Assembly (NCBI GenBank): GCA_029933125.1
Contig: JAOZOU010000013.1
Span: forward strand, 1 to 34,689
DNA: 34,689 nucleotides
DNA from: a bacterium
GTDB taxonomy: Bacteria > Arandabacterota > Arandabacteria > Arandabacterales > Arandabacteraceae
Direction: 5' to 3'
Each line of letters opens with the position of its first letter. Position 1 is the stretch's first letter. The notes below the pieces were generated by a model. It saw nothing but the letters and a program-made list of their open reading frames with translations, searched no databases and was not told the DNA's origin. The position numbers were made by a program, and so were the translations under genes. Positions 12,963 through 23,661 of the stretch are shown here, in pieces.

Positions 12963-13112
12963 ATGCTTGGCTTATTATTTTCTGAAGTTCCAACCGGTTG
13001 CGACGACTCGGATGTCCTTGATTTGGAGAAACCGATTACCGAGTATCAACGGGCTATTGAGGCGCAGAGGATCAGGGGAAGTGTGCAGGGATGCTCATTA
13101 TGGGGCTCTTGA
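12963..13112 (+). other. Protein-like 49-codon ORF, possible gene remnant
   Basis: The ORF contains VLDLEKPITEYQRAIEAQR, which looks like real protein and vaguely recalls the N-terminal helix of acetyl-CoA carboxylase carboxyltransferase subunits. It has no SD and runs into the first 20-aa peptide ORF in another frame. It may be a gene fragment onto which the peptide array was inserted. Weak evidence only. Confidence 0.25.
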
Positions 13113-13162
13113 TCAACCGGCTATGCTTGTGGTTCCACGGCTTCCGGGACGGAAACCTCTAG
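13100..13162 (+). CDS. Tandem Trp-rich 20-aa peptide, copy 1 (diverged)
   Basis: The ORF encodes MGLLINRLCLWFHGFRDGNL (20 residues), with an in-frame ATG 9 nt upstream as an alternative start. It has exactly the length of copies 2 and 3 and shares M-x-L-L-x-N-x-L, G-F/Y-x-D-G and the final L/I followed by TAG. Against copy 3, codons 3, 4, 8, 14, 18 and 20 differ only synonymously. It has lost the Trp at positions 9 and 16 (TGC and CGG for TGG) and carries His at 13; its SD (aggg) is weaker than the others. It looks like the oldest, possibly decaying member of the array. Confidence 0.55.
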   Translation: MGLLINRLCLWFHGFRDGNL

Positions 13163-13297
13163 CACAAGCGTTCCTCTGGTTTGGGATTCTTTCCGCTACA
13201 CGGCACCCCTAGCGTTGCCTTTTGCAATGCCGGCGAATTGCTGGGTTACGCGCCATTGGCAGGGTGAGAGGGTCAAGTAGCATGAAGGAGGTCGCCT

Positions 13298-13360
13298 ATG
13301 GAGCTCTTGCCTAACAGGTTGTGGTTGTTCCTGCTTGGTTACTGGGATGGCAAAATATAG
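13298..13360 (+). CDS. Tandem Trp-rich 20-aa peptide, copy 2
   Basis: The ORF encodes MELLPNRLWLFLLGYWDGKI. A canonical SD (gaaggagg, 13284-13291) lies 6 nt before the ATG. Compared with copy 3, codons 3, 4, 8, 13, 14 and 17 differ synonymously and positions 10, 11, 15 and 20 are conservative replacements (L/F, F/W, Y/F, I/L), the pattern of selection on the peptide. The peptide is hydrophobic and Trp-rich with a polar WDG near the C-terminus; it could span or lie on a membrane. Possible roles include type I toxin-like peptide, signalling peptide or small membrane-protein subunit; none is proven. Confidence 0.7.
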   Translation: MELLPNRLWLFLLGYWDGKI

Positions 13361-13467
13361 AGTATGGTATTTGCTGTAATTACAAGGAGTTATGGATGCC
13401 CCTGGCGGGATTGAGTGGTGGAAACAAGGTTGTAATACTCTAGGCAGCAGGACATGAGAGAAAAGGG

Positions 13468-13496
13468 TTGACAAGGTTTGCGGATTTTGGTAGATG
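13468..13496 (+). promoter_or_regulatory. Putative sigma-70-type promoter (first of a duplicated pair)
   Basis: TTGACA (13468-13473), 17 nt, TAGATG (13491-13496). The segment shares TTGACA-x-GG, TTTG-x-GG and TGGTAG with the second promoter at 13543-13572, so the two look like copies of one promoter unit. The -35 is perfect; the -10 is weak. Confidence 0.45.
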
Positions 13497-13542
13497 TTAG
13501 ACGAGGGCGGGGAAGGGTTGTGAAGGAGGTTGAAAAAAAAGC

Positions 13543-13572
13543 TTGACAGGGATTTGTGGGTTGTGGTAGGGT
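13543..13572 (+). promoter_or_regulatory. Putative promoter of peptide copy 3
   Basis: TTGACA (13543-13548), 18 nt, TAGGGT (13567-13572), about 37 nt before the ATG of copy 3. The trailing tagggtgaaag resembles cagggtgagag found about 40 nt before copy 2 (13257 onward), suggesting each peptide unit carries its own promoter. Confidence 0.5.
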
Positions 13573-13608
13573 GAAAGTGCTCGGGGAGAGTGTACAAGGA
13601 GGTTTGTG

Positions 13609-13671
13609 ATGGAGCTGCTCATCAACTGGCTCTGGTTCTGGCTGCTAGGGTTCTGGGACGGCATCTTGTAG
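13609..13671 (+). CDS. Tandem Trp-rich 20-aa peptide, copy 3
   Basis: The ORF encodes MELLINWLWFWLLGFWDGIL: 20 residues with five Trp. A strong SD (aaggagg, 13596-13602) is 6 nt from the ATG, a TTGACA promoter lies just upstream, and a hairpin plus T-run terminator follows 35 nt after the stop, so it forms a complete minimal transcription unit of about 150 nt. It shares length, start context (ggagg..ATGGAGCT) and the G-[FY]-W-D-G C-terminus with copy 2. I know of no family with this sequence. Its hydrophobicity suggests a membrane location. Confidence 0.72.
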   Translation: MELLINWLWFWLLGFWDGIL

Positions 13672-13705
13672 CTGTCAGTTGTAGTTTGGTCTTAGGCTGC
13701 TTATG

Positions 13706-13733
13706 AGGGCGCTCGTGTGTTGCGCCCTTTTTT
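13706..13733 (+). terminator. Rho-independent terminator after the peptide array
   Basis: GGGCGC (13707-13712) and GCGCCC (13722-13727) form a perfect 6-bp GC stem, extended by an A-T pair, with a 9-nt loop, followed directly by TTTTTT (13728-13733). It closes the transcript of peptide copy 3. Confidence 0.85.
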
Positions 13734-13862
13734 GCATTCTGCAATCCTGGTTGCTTTTTGCAACTCATTGATCTCAACGTACTCCTGCCTCTTGTCTTCG
13801 ATTTCTTTCCTATGTCTGCGTCTCCCATAGGCTAGAGAGTTTCACTCACATCTTGTAAACCC

Positions 13863-13878
13863 TGGCACGAGACTTGCG
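13863..13878 (+). promoter_or_regulatory. Sigma-54 (-24/-12) promoter of the HD-GYP gene
   Basis: TGGCACG-AGAC-TTGCG matches the RpoN consensus TGGCACG-N4-TTGCW at all but the last base, with GG (13864) and GC (13876) 10 nt apart. Transcription would start near 13889, about 28 nt before the GTG start at 13917. No copy of the TGTCACG/CGTGACA enhancer seen at 20832-20850 was found upstream, so a different activator, or a site I cannot see, would be needed. Confidence 0.75.
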
Positions 13879-13916: not shown

Positions 13917-16754
13917 GTGCGTCCGAGGTTTGTCATCTTCACGTTGCTGCTCGGCATAGCGGGCATTACCACCCTGATTGCGACTGCCCGGCCAGCCGTG
14001 GCTGTCTTCACAGTCTCGCCCGCTAGCTTTTTCTTTGTCGGCTTGGCTCTGCTCGTTACAGTGTTGCCAGTTCGTGGACTCCGCGGTGTTTCGAGGCTCG
14101 ATTTGACTCCGCTACCGCTTCTTACAATGGCACTCCTTTACGGGACTGCGGCAGCGACAGTCACTGCATGGGCAAGTGGTGCGATTGCGAGTTTAGCTTC
14201 GCCGACTGGAAAAGCCAAATCCGACGCCCTCAGGGTGGTCTTCAACAGTAGCAAGCGCTCACTTTGTGTGCTGGCAGCTGGGTTGCTTCTATGGGGAAGA
14301 GACCCTGGGAGCGGTCTTGGTGAGCTACCAGGCTGGCATATTCTTGCCCGCCTGCTCATAGCTCACGCTGCCTACTTCTCGATATCGACGTGGCTGCTTT
14401 CATTTGGTCTCTGGCTCAGAGATGGAAGGAATCCTTTCCAGGTATGGCGTGCCAACTTTCGCTGGGGTGCACTGGTCTCCTGGAGCACACCTCTGGGTGC
14501 ATATCTGCTTGCCCTCTTCTGTCTCCGCGGTGGGTTTCTGCTGATCGGTATCCTCATCGGAGTGGGCCTTCTTGGAATCTACGTCGCCCGTGATCATGTC
14601 CGTATTTACACATCCTTCCTCAACCTGGTAGATGCCTTGCGCATGGCTCGTGATGGTAACCTGCCACACCTTAAGGGTGAGACAGAGCGGGTGGTAGATC
14701 TCGCAACAAGGCTGGCTCAGCGCATGAAGCTTCCCCGTCGCGCTGTAGAGCTGGTTGAGCGAGCAGCAATGCTTCACAACGTTGGCTACATATCGGTTGA
14801 CAGAGACACTGTGCTGAAGCCTGCCAAACTCACTGAGAGTGAGATGGGCGAGATCCGGGGTCATCCGGAAAGTGGCATGCGCATCCTTCGTGAAGTCGAA
14901 GGACTTGACGAAGTTGCTCAAATTGTCCTCAACCATCATGAGAGCCCGGACGGCAGCGGCTATCCCAAAGGTCTCAGACTGGAGCAGATACCGCTCGAAG
15001 CTTCCATAGTGAAGGTGGCAGAGGCTTATGTGGCAATGCGGAGTGAGCGTCCCCACCGAGCCAGACCTCTGACTCACGAGGAAGCGCTCGAGGTAATAGC
15101 TGATGAGAGTGGCAGGAGTTTTGATGCTACCGTTGCCTACTATCTCTTCGATCTCTTGGGACGCTCTGACCTGGCTGAGCGGGTCTCCGGTGGCTTTGGC
15201 GCGCCGAGGCGAGCTGAGCTCAGGCGAAGGCTCTTGCCAAAGCAGTCCAGGCCGGTGCGCTTCCTACCCGAGTCCCCTGAGGAGCGGATTCTCATGCTCA
15301 AGGGGGCTGGACTGGTTGCAGTGACGACGATCCTGGTTGTTATCTTCGGGAGACTGCGGTTTGCTGGAGCAACCGAAGGGCTCGATGCAACTGTGAGTAT
15401 CTTCTTCGCCGCCCTCCTCGGGCTTGCTGGTTTGCGAGCTGTGCGACTTTCCTGGGGTGCATATGTCTCAGCGTCAACGGCAATAGTCCTGCCAATGGCA
15501 CTTCTGGGCGGACCCATCTACGCTGTGCTTTTTGGATTGGGAGCAATAGGCTGGGGGCTAATCCACGAGCCAGACAAGGCACTCGGAAAGCACTCAAGAC
15601 CCAATCCTGTCCCGAAGGCGGCAAGCAATGGTGGCATAGCGGGTCTTATCAAGGCGAAAGCTCGGGCGCATAGACTCTCACCTGTTACGAGCTACGGTCT
15701 GGTCTTATCGGTAGCCGGAGTGGCTAGCTCAGTGACCCACAGACTTGGCATGAGGCTTGGAAGTGCCCTTATGCAGATCGGGCTGGGAGGATGGAGCTGG
15801 GATCTCTTGGGCTTTCTCTTCACAGTTACCACATTCTATCTCATCGAGACCGGGCTCATGAGTGCACTGCTCTCCCGAGATGGCATGCACCTTTCACCCT
15901 GGCGCCTCTGGCAGCGCAACTATCTCAAGATCTTTCCTGAGCCTCTTACCTATGCCGTCTGCGGTTATGCCATCTATCTGGGCTATGGCATGCTCGGACT
16001 TTGGGCTACGCTCCCGCTCTTCCTCTTCCCCACTTTCTGGCGACACCTGGCACTCCTGAGAAGAGTCGAGCTCGTCAAGATAAAGGATAGCCTCCTCAGA
16101 GCCATCGCAAAAGCAATCGACGAGAAGGATCGCTACACTGGCGGACACTCCGCAAGTGTCGTTGAACTCAGTGTAGCCATTGCGCGAGAGATGGGTATGA
16201 GTGAACGCTTCGTTGAGGAACTTGAAGAAGCTGCAATCAGACATGACCTGGGCAAGGTTTCCTGGCCTAACCAGGTGCTCCGGAAGCCAGCCCGTCTGAA
16301 TGAGCACGAAGAGGAGACCTACAAGCTAACTCATCCTGACGTGAGCGCTGAGATAGCTCGCCGGGCAGGCTCATCCGGGTCAGTGTGCGACATGATAAAG
16401 TATCACCACGAGCGCTGGGATGGAGAGGGCTATCCTCACAGACTTAAAGGTGAGGAGATACCTGTGGGTGCGCGTATTCTTTGTGTTGCCGATTCCTTCG
16501 ATGCAATGATCCACGATCGCTGGTATCGGAGACGTCGCATGCTCGATGATGCTATCGAGGAACTCAAGCGCTGTAGCGGTAGCCAATTTGACCCACAGGT
16601 TGTTGGAGCTTTCATGCGCCTTACCACAAAGATCGATCTTGAGCAGCTTGTCGGCAGGGTGGAGGCTGAAGTCAAGATCACCCCGCCTCTTGAGCAACTC
16701 GAGGAGCAGCCCGCAGAACGCATCTCCGAGGTCACCACCCAGTCCCGAGCGTAG
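13917..16754 (+). CDS. Two-module membrane HD-GYP domain protein
   Basis: The protein has two repeats of [membrane helices + HD-GYP]. Module 1: helices in residues 5-235, then an HD-GYP domain with MLHN (287-288 in place of HD), NHHESPDGSGYPKG (HHE at 340, DGSGYP at 345). Module 2: helices in about 455-715, then a complete domain with IRHDLGK (HD at 776-777), YHHERWDGEGYP and an IPVGARILCVADSFDAM tail. HD-GYP proteins hydrolyse cyclic di-GMP or related dinucleotides at a metal centre. Module 1 lacks the catalytic Asp and is probably regulatory. GTG 13917 follows aaggggagg; GTG 13899 is also in frame. Length, 945 residues, is about twice a single-module protein. Transcription is probably sigma-54 dependent. 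Confidence 0.9.
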   Translation: MRPRFVIFTLLLGIAGITTLIATARPAVAVFTVSPASFFFVGLALLVTVLPVRGLRGVSRLDLTPLPLLTMALLYGTAAATVTAWASGAIASLASPTGKAKSDALRVVFNSSKRSLCVLAAGLLLWGRDPGSGLGELPGWHILARLLIAHAAYFSISTWLLSFGLWLRDGRNPFQVWRANFRWGALVSWSTPLGAYLLALFCLRGGFLLIGILIGVGLLGIYVARDHVRIYTSFLNLVDALRMARDGNLPHLKGETERVVDLATRLAQRMKLPRRAVELVERAAMLHNVGYISVDRDTVLKPAKLTESEMGEIRGHPESGMRILREVEGLDEVAQIVLNHHESPDGSGYPKGLRLEQIPLEASIVKVAEAYVAMRSERPHRARPLTHEEALEVIADESGRSFDATVAYYLFDLLGRSDLAERVSGGFGAPRRAELRRRLLPKQSRPVRFLPESPEERILMLKGAGLVAVTTILVVIFGRLRFAGATEGLDATVSIFFAALLGLAGLRAVRLSWGAYVSASTAIVLPMALLGGPIYAVLFGLGAIGWGLIHEPDKALGKHSRPNPVPKAASNGGIAGLIKAKARAHRLSPVTSYGLVLSVAGVASSVTHRLGMRLGSALMQIGLGGWSWDLLGFLFTVTTFYLIETGLMSALLSRDGMHLSPWRLWQRNYLKIFPEPLTYAVCGYAIYLGYGMLGLWATLPLFLFPTFWRHLALLRRVELVKIKDSLLRAIAKAIDEKDRYTGGHSASVVELSVAIAREMGMSERFVEELEEAAIRHDLGKVSWPNQVLRKPARLNEHEEETYKLTHPDVSAEIARRAGSSGSVCDMIKYHHERWDGEGYPHRLKGEEIPVGARILCVADSFDAMIHDRWYRRRRMLDDAIEELKRCSGSQFDPQVVGAFMRLTTKIDLEQLVGRVEAEVKITPPLEQLEEQPAERISEVTTQSRA

Positions 16755-21043: not shown

Positions 21044-23284
21044 TTAGCGGATGCGCTTCAGCCAGCGATAAAGTGTCTGCCTGCTTACACCCAATCTCCT
21101 TGCGGCCAGGCTTAGGTTGCCATTGGTTGCAGTAAGAGTCTGCCTGAGGACAGTAGAATCGATATTACCCCTATCTGGCTTGTTTCTCCTGGGGTTACCC
21201 CTGTCCAACAGTGGTTCAATGTCTTCTGGCTCGATTGCGCCACCGCGGCCTCCCACGAGGGCTTCAATCACATTTTTGAGTTCTCTCACATTGCCAGGCC
21301 AACTGTAGGTGAGAAGCCTCTGGCGTGCATCTTCAGTCAAAGTCACCCTGACACCATAACTCGTGCAGTATTGATCAAGATAGTAGTCGATGAGGAGCTC
21401 AATATCATAAGGACGCTCTCTTAAGGATGGGATTCTCAGGAGCACACCCTTTAGCCTGTAGTAGAGGTCTTTTCTGAACTTGCCAGCCTCTACCTCAGCC
21501 CAGAGATCCCTTGTTGTTGCACTCAGGACCCTTATGTCTATCTTTCTTTGCTCATCGCTGCCCACTCGCCTCACCGAGCCTTCCTCAAGCACTCTCAGGA
21601 GCTTTACCTGGAGACCTTCAGAAAGCTCACCCACCTCATCGAGCAGGAGGGTTCCACCATTAGCACTCTCGATGAGTCCAACTCGCTCCCTGACAGCACC
21701 GGTGAAGGCACCTTTGGCATGACCGAAGAGTTCACTCTCTGCAAGGGTTTCTGAGAGGCTGCCACAGTCTATGACCACAAAGGGCTCCTCCCTGCGCCTG
21801 CTCATCCTGTGCATTGCTCGGGCAAGGAGTTCCTTGCCAACACCAGTCTCACCCTCAATCAAGACTCTCACATCCGTTGCTCCCCACTGCTTGAGATCTC
21901 CTGCTATGCGCTCATCAGCAGTAACAATGCCAAAGCGAGCAAGATCAGTCATGGGGGCATCAGCAGTCGATGGCGACTTGGGCACCGAGGACGAAGCGGC
22001 TACCACACAAGGCGGGCTGTGACTCATCATGTCTGACACGATTTCATCGACTCGGCGAACCAGGAGGCTGATGCCAAGGCTGGAGAATATACGGCGAGAA
22101 CTCAACAGGTGGACTAAGGCGTCTCCCCTAGACGCGACTGACTCACACTTCGCCATAGCCTTCCCAAGTGCGAATTCGCTCAGAGCCAGTTCATGAGACC
22201 AGGATGAAAGTGATGATAACGTTTCAATCGATTGTCTCAGATGGCTCATAGCAAGCGACGCTAAACCTTCTCGCAGGGACACCTCACCGAGTATTCTAAG
22301 GTAGATACCGACCTCGTACAGATCCTGGAGTTTCTTCGCCAACATGAGCCCCTTCTCGGCACATGCTCTTGCCTGTGATACTCGACCAAGTCTGAGATTC
22401 ATGGCCGCAACTCGTCTGAGTAACTCGCACTCTAGGTCGGTGTCTGGATAAGAAGCACGAACCTTGGAGGCAGTTTCCATATAGATATCGAGTGCGTCTG
22501 TGCTTTCTCCTGTGGCTGCCCTGAGATCGCCGCGGATTTCGTTGGCAATAATCATTTCGCGTGCGTATCCATGTTCTTCAGCAATTCTCTGAGCGTCATT
22601 GAGACAGTCTTTGCAGCCATCAAAGTCTCTCCGAATGATCGATATGTTAGCTAGCTCCAGCTTCATTCGACACTTAAGTATGGTCGCCTTGCATCTTTCT
22701 GCTAAGTCGAGTACTTCGGTGCATAGCCTTTCTGCCTCATCGAGCTTACCCTCTTTGCGCAAGAGTATCCCCAGGTTCGATGCAACCCGCAGCCTGCTTG
22801 TCAAGTCAGCTTCATCACTGGTTATCTCTAGGGCTGTTCTCAAATTCCTCTCCGCATCAGCCCACAGGCCGAGGTTCTTGCATGCAAGCCCAAGGTTATT
22901 GTAACTATCGCGTTCCAAGATGGGATCGCGCATCTCCCACTTCGCAAAATAGCTTGCTGCCTCGGCGTGAGCTTTGGCTTTCTCGTAGTGACCTGTCCTG
23001 AGGTAGAGCCCAGACAGCAGGACATGCACTTTTGCGAGAAGGTTACGATCTTGGAGATTCTCTGCCGCCTGGAATGCTTTCTGCGCTATGCTAACCGCGT
23101 CGGCGTATCTGTTTTGAGCACCTGCAAGCCGTGCCTTCAGGAGGAGCAACCAAGCCTTTCCTTGGGCATTTCCTGAGCGCGCCACTTCCTGCTCAAGGGT
23201 TCTCAGCTGGGTGTCTACACCGTCAATGTTCCCCCTCGCTATATTCCTCTCGATAGTCTTTATGTGTTTTGACCAGTCCTTCAT
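21044..23284 (-). CDS. Sigma-54-dependent transcriptional activator with N-terminal TPR domain
   Basis: The 746-residue product has a TPR-like helical sensor (about 1-420, e.g. [20 protein letters not shown]), an AAA+ domain with Walker A GETGVGKE (478-485), intact GAFTGA (525-530) that contacts sigma-54, Walker B LLLDE (546-550), and a C-terminal Fis-type helix-turn-helix ([20 protein letters not shown], about 721-740). It has no receiver or GAF domain, so control is probably by protein or peptide binding to the TPRs. Its ATG overlaps the stop of the small secreted-protein gene by 4 nt (ATGA). Downstream on the same strand are the palindromic enhancer and sigma-54 promoter of the lipoprotein operon, its most likely target. 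Confidence 0.93.
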
Positions 23285-23604
23285 GGCTGAAAGGAAAATG
23301 GCGTCAGGATGATCTTGAATTGTCCCCTACTCGTAGACTGTGGCTTCCGTGCACAACGATCGCATGGTGAGGGTGAAAGACAACCGTGGACCTCATACAG
23401 GTTGCTCCTCTTATCCCTCAGTTCCGATGCCAGGATGGGCTGGAAGTTATTACTCGGTCCATCTGCAAAGGCTGGTGAGTCAGGATCCCCCAACCAAATG
23501 GGTATTGCAACATCCCTTGCGGGAGGACGGATTGCAACCGAATCGGACGCGAGTACTGCGAGTATGAGTCCCACCACAGCAATCGTGATCAATAACCTTC
23601 TCAT
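23281..23604 (-). CDS. Small secreted protein co-translated with the sigma-54 activator
   Basis: The start is ATG 23604 with a strong SD (aagggggg, 6 nt). The 107-residue product begins with a signal peptide (MRRLLITIAVVGLILAVLAS) and then IPIWLGDPDSPAFADGPSNN. The rest is polar, with three Cys (HGCLSPSPCDRC) and a basic tail. I know no family. Its stop overlaps the regulator start as ATGA, so the two are made together. It may be the signal, ligand or antagonist of the regulator, or simply a co-expressed envelope protein. Confidence 0.6.
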   Translation of the reverse strand: MRRLLITIAVVGLILAVLASDSVAIRPPARDVAIPIWLGDPDSPAFADGPSNNFQPILASELRDKRSNLYEVHGCLSPSPCDRCARKPQSTSRGQFKIILTPFSFQP

Positions 23605-23626
23605 ATTAATCCCCCCTTCTTGATGT

Positions 23627-23661
23627 ACCACCGGTGGTGGGACCTAAAAGAGAAAGGTCCC
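23627..23661. promoter_or_regulatory. Two palindromes in the leader of the regulator operon
   Basis: ACCACCGGTGGT (23627-23638) is a perfect 12-bp palindrome, directly followed by GGGACCT-N9-AGGTCCC (23639-23661), a perfect 7-bp inverted repeat. Both lie 23-57 bp before the secreted-protein start and could be an operator pair or an mRNA leader structure. The rest of 23662-23909 shows nothing recognisable. Confidence 0.45.

Follow-up and report, generated by a model that had tools for sequence, protein, structure and literature searches.

A 63-nt open reading frame encoding a 20-residue hydrophobic peptide is, on comparative sequence evidence, almost certainly a real small gene, and together with the adjacent gene for a membrane HD-GYP-type protein it forms the pair that stays together while the neighbours change. 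It is the last of three tandem copies in the window, the whole 34,689-nucleotide stretch of DNA that was analyzed.

Tandem copies in the window and selection on the peptide

The three ORFs lie on the plus strand where the first-pass annotation had placed them and encode the peptides it described: copy 1 at 13100..13162 (MGLLINRLCLWFHGFRDGNL), copy 2 at 13298..13360 (MELLPNRLWLFLLGYWDGKI) and copy 3 at 13609..13671 (MELLINWLWFWLLGFWDGIL), each 20 codons long and intact in copies 2 and 3. The Shine-Dalgarno sequence noted 6 nt before the ATG of the latter two is AAGGAGG in both (13285..13291 and 13596..13602, plus strand); the exact string AAGGAGG-N6-ATGGAGCT occurs in the window at these copies only. 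Nine ORFs of 12-40 codons in the window begin with ATG and have a good Shine-Dalgarno sequence, and these copies are two of the nine. Copy 3 is a full unit with a promoter and terminator of its own, as had been proposed: a sigma70 promoter at 13543..13572 (+; TTGACA-18-TAGGGT, with a TG before the -10) and, from folding, an intrinsic hairpin terminator at 13705..13731 (+; GAGGGCGC-loop-GCGCCCTT-TTTT) that lies 33 nt past the stop codon. A second sigma70-like promoter, TTGACA-17-TAGATG, is located upstream at 13468..13496 (+), and the congeneric genome G001 has one too.

The initial description of the copies as self-contained tandem units fits copy 3 but not the other two. At copy 2 the promoter is poor, as the conserved promoter position is empty and the best candidate would start transcription within the Shine-Dalgarno region, while at copy 1 neither a Shine-Dalgarno sequence nor a promoter was detected and the codon tests were not significant (P 0.07-0.34). 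Because copy 1 is without significant constraint, Shine-Dalgarno sequence and promoter, and copy 2 is without a promoter at the conserved place, the array, judged by these signals, is one healthy gene accompanied by one partly decayed and one largely, and probably, decayed copy.

That selection acts on the peptide, as first suggested, is borne out by codon simulations on copies 2 and 3 and the second copy of G001. The 20 nucleotide differences between copies 2 and 3 cause 7 amino acid changes compared with 11.7 expected (P=0.0035), and the 11 differences between copy 3 and G001 copy 2 cause 3 changes compared with 7.3 expected, a number as low as this being reached in 0 of 4000 simulations, consistent with purifying selection on copy 3. 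The codon comparisons display both a third-position excess and a synonymous bias, the periodicity that had been suggested as a test. The earlier tally for copies 2 and 3, six synonymous codon differences and four conservative replacements (L/F, F/W, Y/F and I/L), was correct as far as it went but omitted three further replacements (P/I, R/W and K/I), so that seven codons differ by replacement. It is very improbable that these frames are open by chance, or that what is conserved is a non-coding RNA with an incidental ORF: the ORFs are indeed very short, but beyond the synonymous bias and third-position excess, the intact copies have exactly 20 codons and a constant Shine-Dalgarno sequence, the ORF is more conserved than its surroundings (83% identity between genus members compared with 43-53% for the downstream flanks), and, apart from the terminator, folding shows no conservation (z -1.1 to -2.3).

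Homologues and distribution of the peptide family

The search for related 20-residue ORFs that the first-pass annotation had proposed was made in the phylum, represented by eight genomes (the window genome comprising 176 contigs), and beyond it, and found such ORFs in G001, G002 and one contig of G155. G001, from the same genus (contig C361, JALGWB010000008.1, 21,188 bp), harbors a second tandem pair, 80-85% identical, in which the two units, M(V)ELLINWLWFWLVDFWDGEF (L005 3348) and (M)MELLINWLWFWLVGFWDGEF (L005 3745/3748), lie 397 bp apart. The start of these copies possibly lies one codon earlier. G002, from another genus of the family, has a single unit before its HD gene (MLLSMGWWIISYLGFFDGEL; L030 906-844, minus strand), and a 5.6-kb contig of G155 also carries a single unit (MLLSMGWWIISYLGFFDGEF); the peptides of these two, MLLSMGWWIISYLGFFDGE(L/F), occupy the same place as in the window. 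The tandem array is a genus-level duplication that includes decayed copies, with the second genus being single-copy. In the other five phylum genomes, the profile search did not find the peptide. A 30-nt direct repeat, TTTGCTG..AT..C..GGGATTACGC, precedes each G001 unit (L005 2982-3011 and 3510-3539; 80% identical), and a weaker likeness to it is present past window copy 2, at approximately 13369-13397.

The G155 contig (G155:C100, L065) is nominally outside the phylum. The neighbouring MFS gene shares 96% identity with that of G002, on which ground the contig is most likely a mis-binned piece from this phylum. Between the G002 (L030) and G155 contigs the peptide is 95% identical and the N-terminal part of the HD protein 66%, a mosaic divergence that seems to reflect a recombination point or a paralogue just past the palindromes described below.

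The G002 peptide escaped a profile built from the window genus only (E<=1); once position had singled out the candidate, the residue-shuffle P was 0.0010-0.0016. Given this value, the shared position and the alignment of every other locus element, the second-genus peptide is very likely homologous to that of the window. The part conserved across genera is the C-terminal [LV]-G-[FY]-[WF]-D-G-x-[LIF], as copy 3 and the G002 peptide are identical at 6 of the last 8 residues in the alignment compared with 2 of the 11 that follow the initial Met. Of the Trp-rich consensus drawn up initially, the C-terminal end is therefore conserved but the Trp-rich middle is not, with four Trp in copy 3, two in copy 2 and two in G002.

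Significant matches in a profile search of 337 genomes were confined to this phylum and the G155 contig, and a pattern of Shine-Dalgarno sequence, start and ...G[FY][WF..]DGxx-stop occurred in the same genomes there and at two unrelated places. When 84,980 species genomes were scanned with a degenerate pattern, only the sister genome G001 and two chance matches were returned. One match in Mailhella (L014), ending LGFWDGAF-stop, was rejected; its frame runs across other ORFs, and the 18 other genomes of that genus that were searched do not have it. Viral contigs gave 2 and 28 pattern matches with no homologue among them once translated, phages and plasmids contained no homologue, no match was present in Pfam, NCBIfam or Rfam, and a phylum screen for TTGACA...RGGAGG...ATG provided 30 loci that were read and held no further copy. 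Literature on the GFWDG motif, and on a small protein combined with HD-GYP, included nothing relevant. Within the collections searched and at these sensitivities, the peptide family is lineage-restricted and new, in keeping with its initial designation as apparently undescribed, although its kind, the small hydrophobic proteins, is known.

Shared locus order and the HD-GYP-type neighbour

The order of promoter, 20-residue ORF, terminator, TTGC-N5-GCAA palindromes, sigma54 promoter and membrane HD-GYP-type gene is common to all four genomes in which the locus can be compared. The intact units of G000, G001 (both), G002 and G155 have a TTGACA-17/18-TANNNT promoter from which transcription is predicted to begin 29-31 nt ahead of the ORF, AGGAGG and then the 20 codons are aligned across loci, and a terminator hairpin lies 28-33 nt past the stop in four of four loci, the scan having also found it in G001, G002 and G155. 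Next are two TTGC-N5-GCAA palindromes (13732..13763, +), kept in the four-way alignment, and the sigma54 promoter of the HD gene (13862..13877, +; CTGGCACgagacTTGC), whose GG-N10-GC core is retained at every locus. With separate promoters, sigma70 for the peptide and sigma54 for the HD gene, the two are not co-transcribed. All four HD orthologues with readable upstream DNA carry the peptide unit, and the units of G001 directly precede the gene; farther genes on both sides differ between the window and G001. Neither the pattern scans nor the profile search of the genomes examined located the peptide away from the HD gene. G004 and G006 have a clear HD orthologue, but their contigs begin or end inside the gene, placing the upstream DNA outside the comparison.

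The paired palindromes of the window and of L005 (3865-3899) are positioned approximately 100-130 bp before the conserved sigma54 (-24/-12) promoter. Sites for enhancer-binding proteins are usually arranged in this way, and the TTGC-N5-GCAA elements are candidate sites of this type. Similar palindromes in G002 and G155 also occur upstream of the peptide unit. Elsewhere in the window, 21044-23284 (-) encodes an enhancer-binding protein for sigma54 that has a TPR region at its N-terminus and a Fis-type HTH and is a candidate activator of the sigma54 promoter; the short ORF preceding its gene (23281-23631, -) has a signal-like start (MRRLLITIAVVGLILAVLA...).

The HD gene (13917..16754, +), its start set at the GTG at 13917 that aligns with G001, encodes a membrane protein of two halves, each with a hydrophobic transmembrane region before an HD domain (Pfam HD_5/HD), the second of which is HD-GYP-like. 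The protein is 68% identical to that of G001 and has orthologues in the phylum; outside it, the sole orthologue at E<=1e-55 was that of the G155 contig. The second HD domain keeps HDLGK and HHERWDGEGYP and the first has HNVGY; because the HD-GYP motif residues are kept there, catalysis probably resides in the second half. The structure predicted for the first half is of low confidence (pLDDT 59), and its N-terminal domain might be a ligand-binding membrane domain. Weak Foldseek matches of this helical domain (13917-14600) were to the ECF-transporter S components RibU and ThiT (probability 0.8-0.9, E ~1).

Possible roles of the peptide

We tentatively favor a small membrane-inserting peptide that acts with or on the neighbouring HD-GYP protein. 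Transcription from the sigma70 promoter would yield an mRNA of approximately 150 nt, with a 30-nt leader, a strong Shine-Dalgarno sequence, the 20-codon ORF and a terminator about 30 nt on. The predicted product is hydrophobic and aromatic (GRAVY 0.4-1.2 over 20 residues), neutral to negative in net charge, and ends in the conserved octapeptide. For residues 1-16 of copy 3, G001 copy 2 and G002, Wimley-White octanol values lie between -12 and -14 kcal/mol and favor membrane insertion. Since an ordinary transmembrane span is longer than the hydrophobic stretch of approximately 14 residues, the peptide would probably reside at the inner membrane or be half-inserted in it. A role as small membrane partner or tuning ligand of the HD-GYP protein is suggested by its retention just upstream of that gene while other neighbours change, a linkage that comprises four genomes of one phylum, including the probably mis-binned G155 contig. 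Small regulatory membrane proteins are known, with MgrB acting on PhoQ and AcrZ on AcrB. The window peptide resembles these as a very short hydrophobic protein with a proposed action on a large membrane protein, but it has only 20 residues, no full-length transmembrane span, a putative partner and no homology to either.

A type I toxin of the Ibs/Ldr/Zor sort, whose overproduced peptide would depolarize the membrane unless restrained by an antisense RNA unrecognized here, is an unlikely alternative given that such toxins need an antitoxin RNA. Across six units at four loci, the sense promoter is conserved while no clear sigma70-type minus-strand promoter is conserved in position over or after the ORF, only scattered candidates being present, and Rfam returned no match; folding does not place the Shine-Dalgarno sequence in a conserved structure, and the peptide has a single constant chromosomal neighbour instead of a scattered distribution. 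The initial comparison to Ibs/Sib stands in part. As with Ibs/Sib of E. coli, and also Ldr/Rdl and Zor/Orz, a hydrophobic peptide of approximately 20 residues is encoded in a short, self-contained transcription unit with tandem duplicate copies. In length and hydrophobicity the window peptide falls within the short hydrophobic peptides of the Ibs type, as exemplified by IbsC, which has 19 residues, needs at least 10 hydrophobic residues and likewise is without a positively charged C-terminus (PMC8309996). It differs from them in its richness in Trp and Phe, its DG end and its constant position next to one gene, and no sequence similarity to them was recognized.

The greater conservation of the C-terminus is the feature expected of a signalling-peptide precursor. 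In such a precursor the variable hydrophobic N-terminus would serve as a leader, and the last eight residues, [LV]G[FY][WF]DGx[LIF], would form the active segment, sensed by the HD-GYP protein, a large adjacent membrane protein and possible receptor, or by another receptor. Short hydrophobic pheromones (SHP) form an established class, described from Gram-positive bacteria in the literature consulted, and the streptococcal SHP share with the window peptide a length of approximately 20 residues and conservation at the C-terminal end. However, the sequence is different, the host is outside Bacillota, no exporter or protease gene is found at a conserved place, and the neighbours are the HD protein and varying genes with no adjoining Rgg or other RRNPP-type regulator, making such a precursor quite unlikely. 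An attenuator, with translation of a Trp-rich ORF switching termination ahead of the HD gene, is improbable and not supported by the data. The short ORF with four Trp codons and a terminator 28-33 nt on is reminiscent of trpL-type leaders, but antiterminator pairing was observed at none of four loci (complementarity to the terminator arm being no better than in shuffles, P 0.43-1.0), the Trp codons are not conserved (two in the second genus), and past the terminator a separate sigma54 promoter serves the HD gene.

The membrane peptide acting with the HD-GYP protein remains the reading we prefer. In a more specific and speculative form, which we regard as unlikely, the peptide, membrane-inserted or exported, would be a cognate ligand that directly sets the adjacent receptor-like HD-GYP phosphodiesterase, the two genes constituting a module; we are not aware of any account of a signalling module in which two genes pair a peptide ligand with a cyclic-dinucleotide phosphodiesterase. 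The locus adds a conserved 20-residue gene family, shorter than gene callers report, to a phylum for which eight genomes were compared, and its fixed position provides a concrete candidate partner. Should the two genes prove to work together, they would illustrate how a peptide encoded by a gene can control an HD-GYP-type phosphodiesterase.
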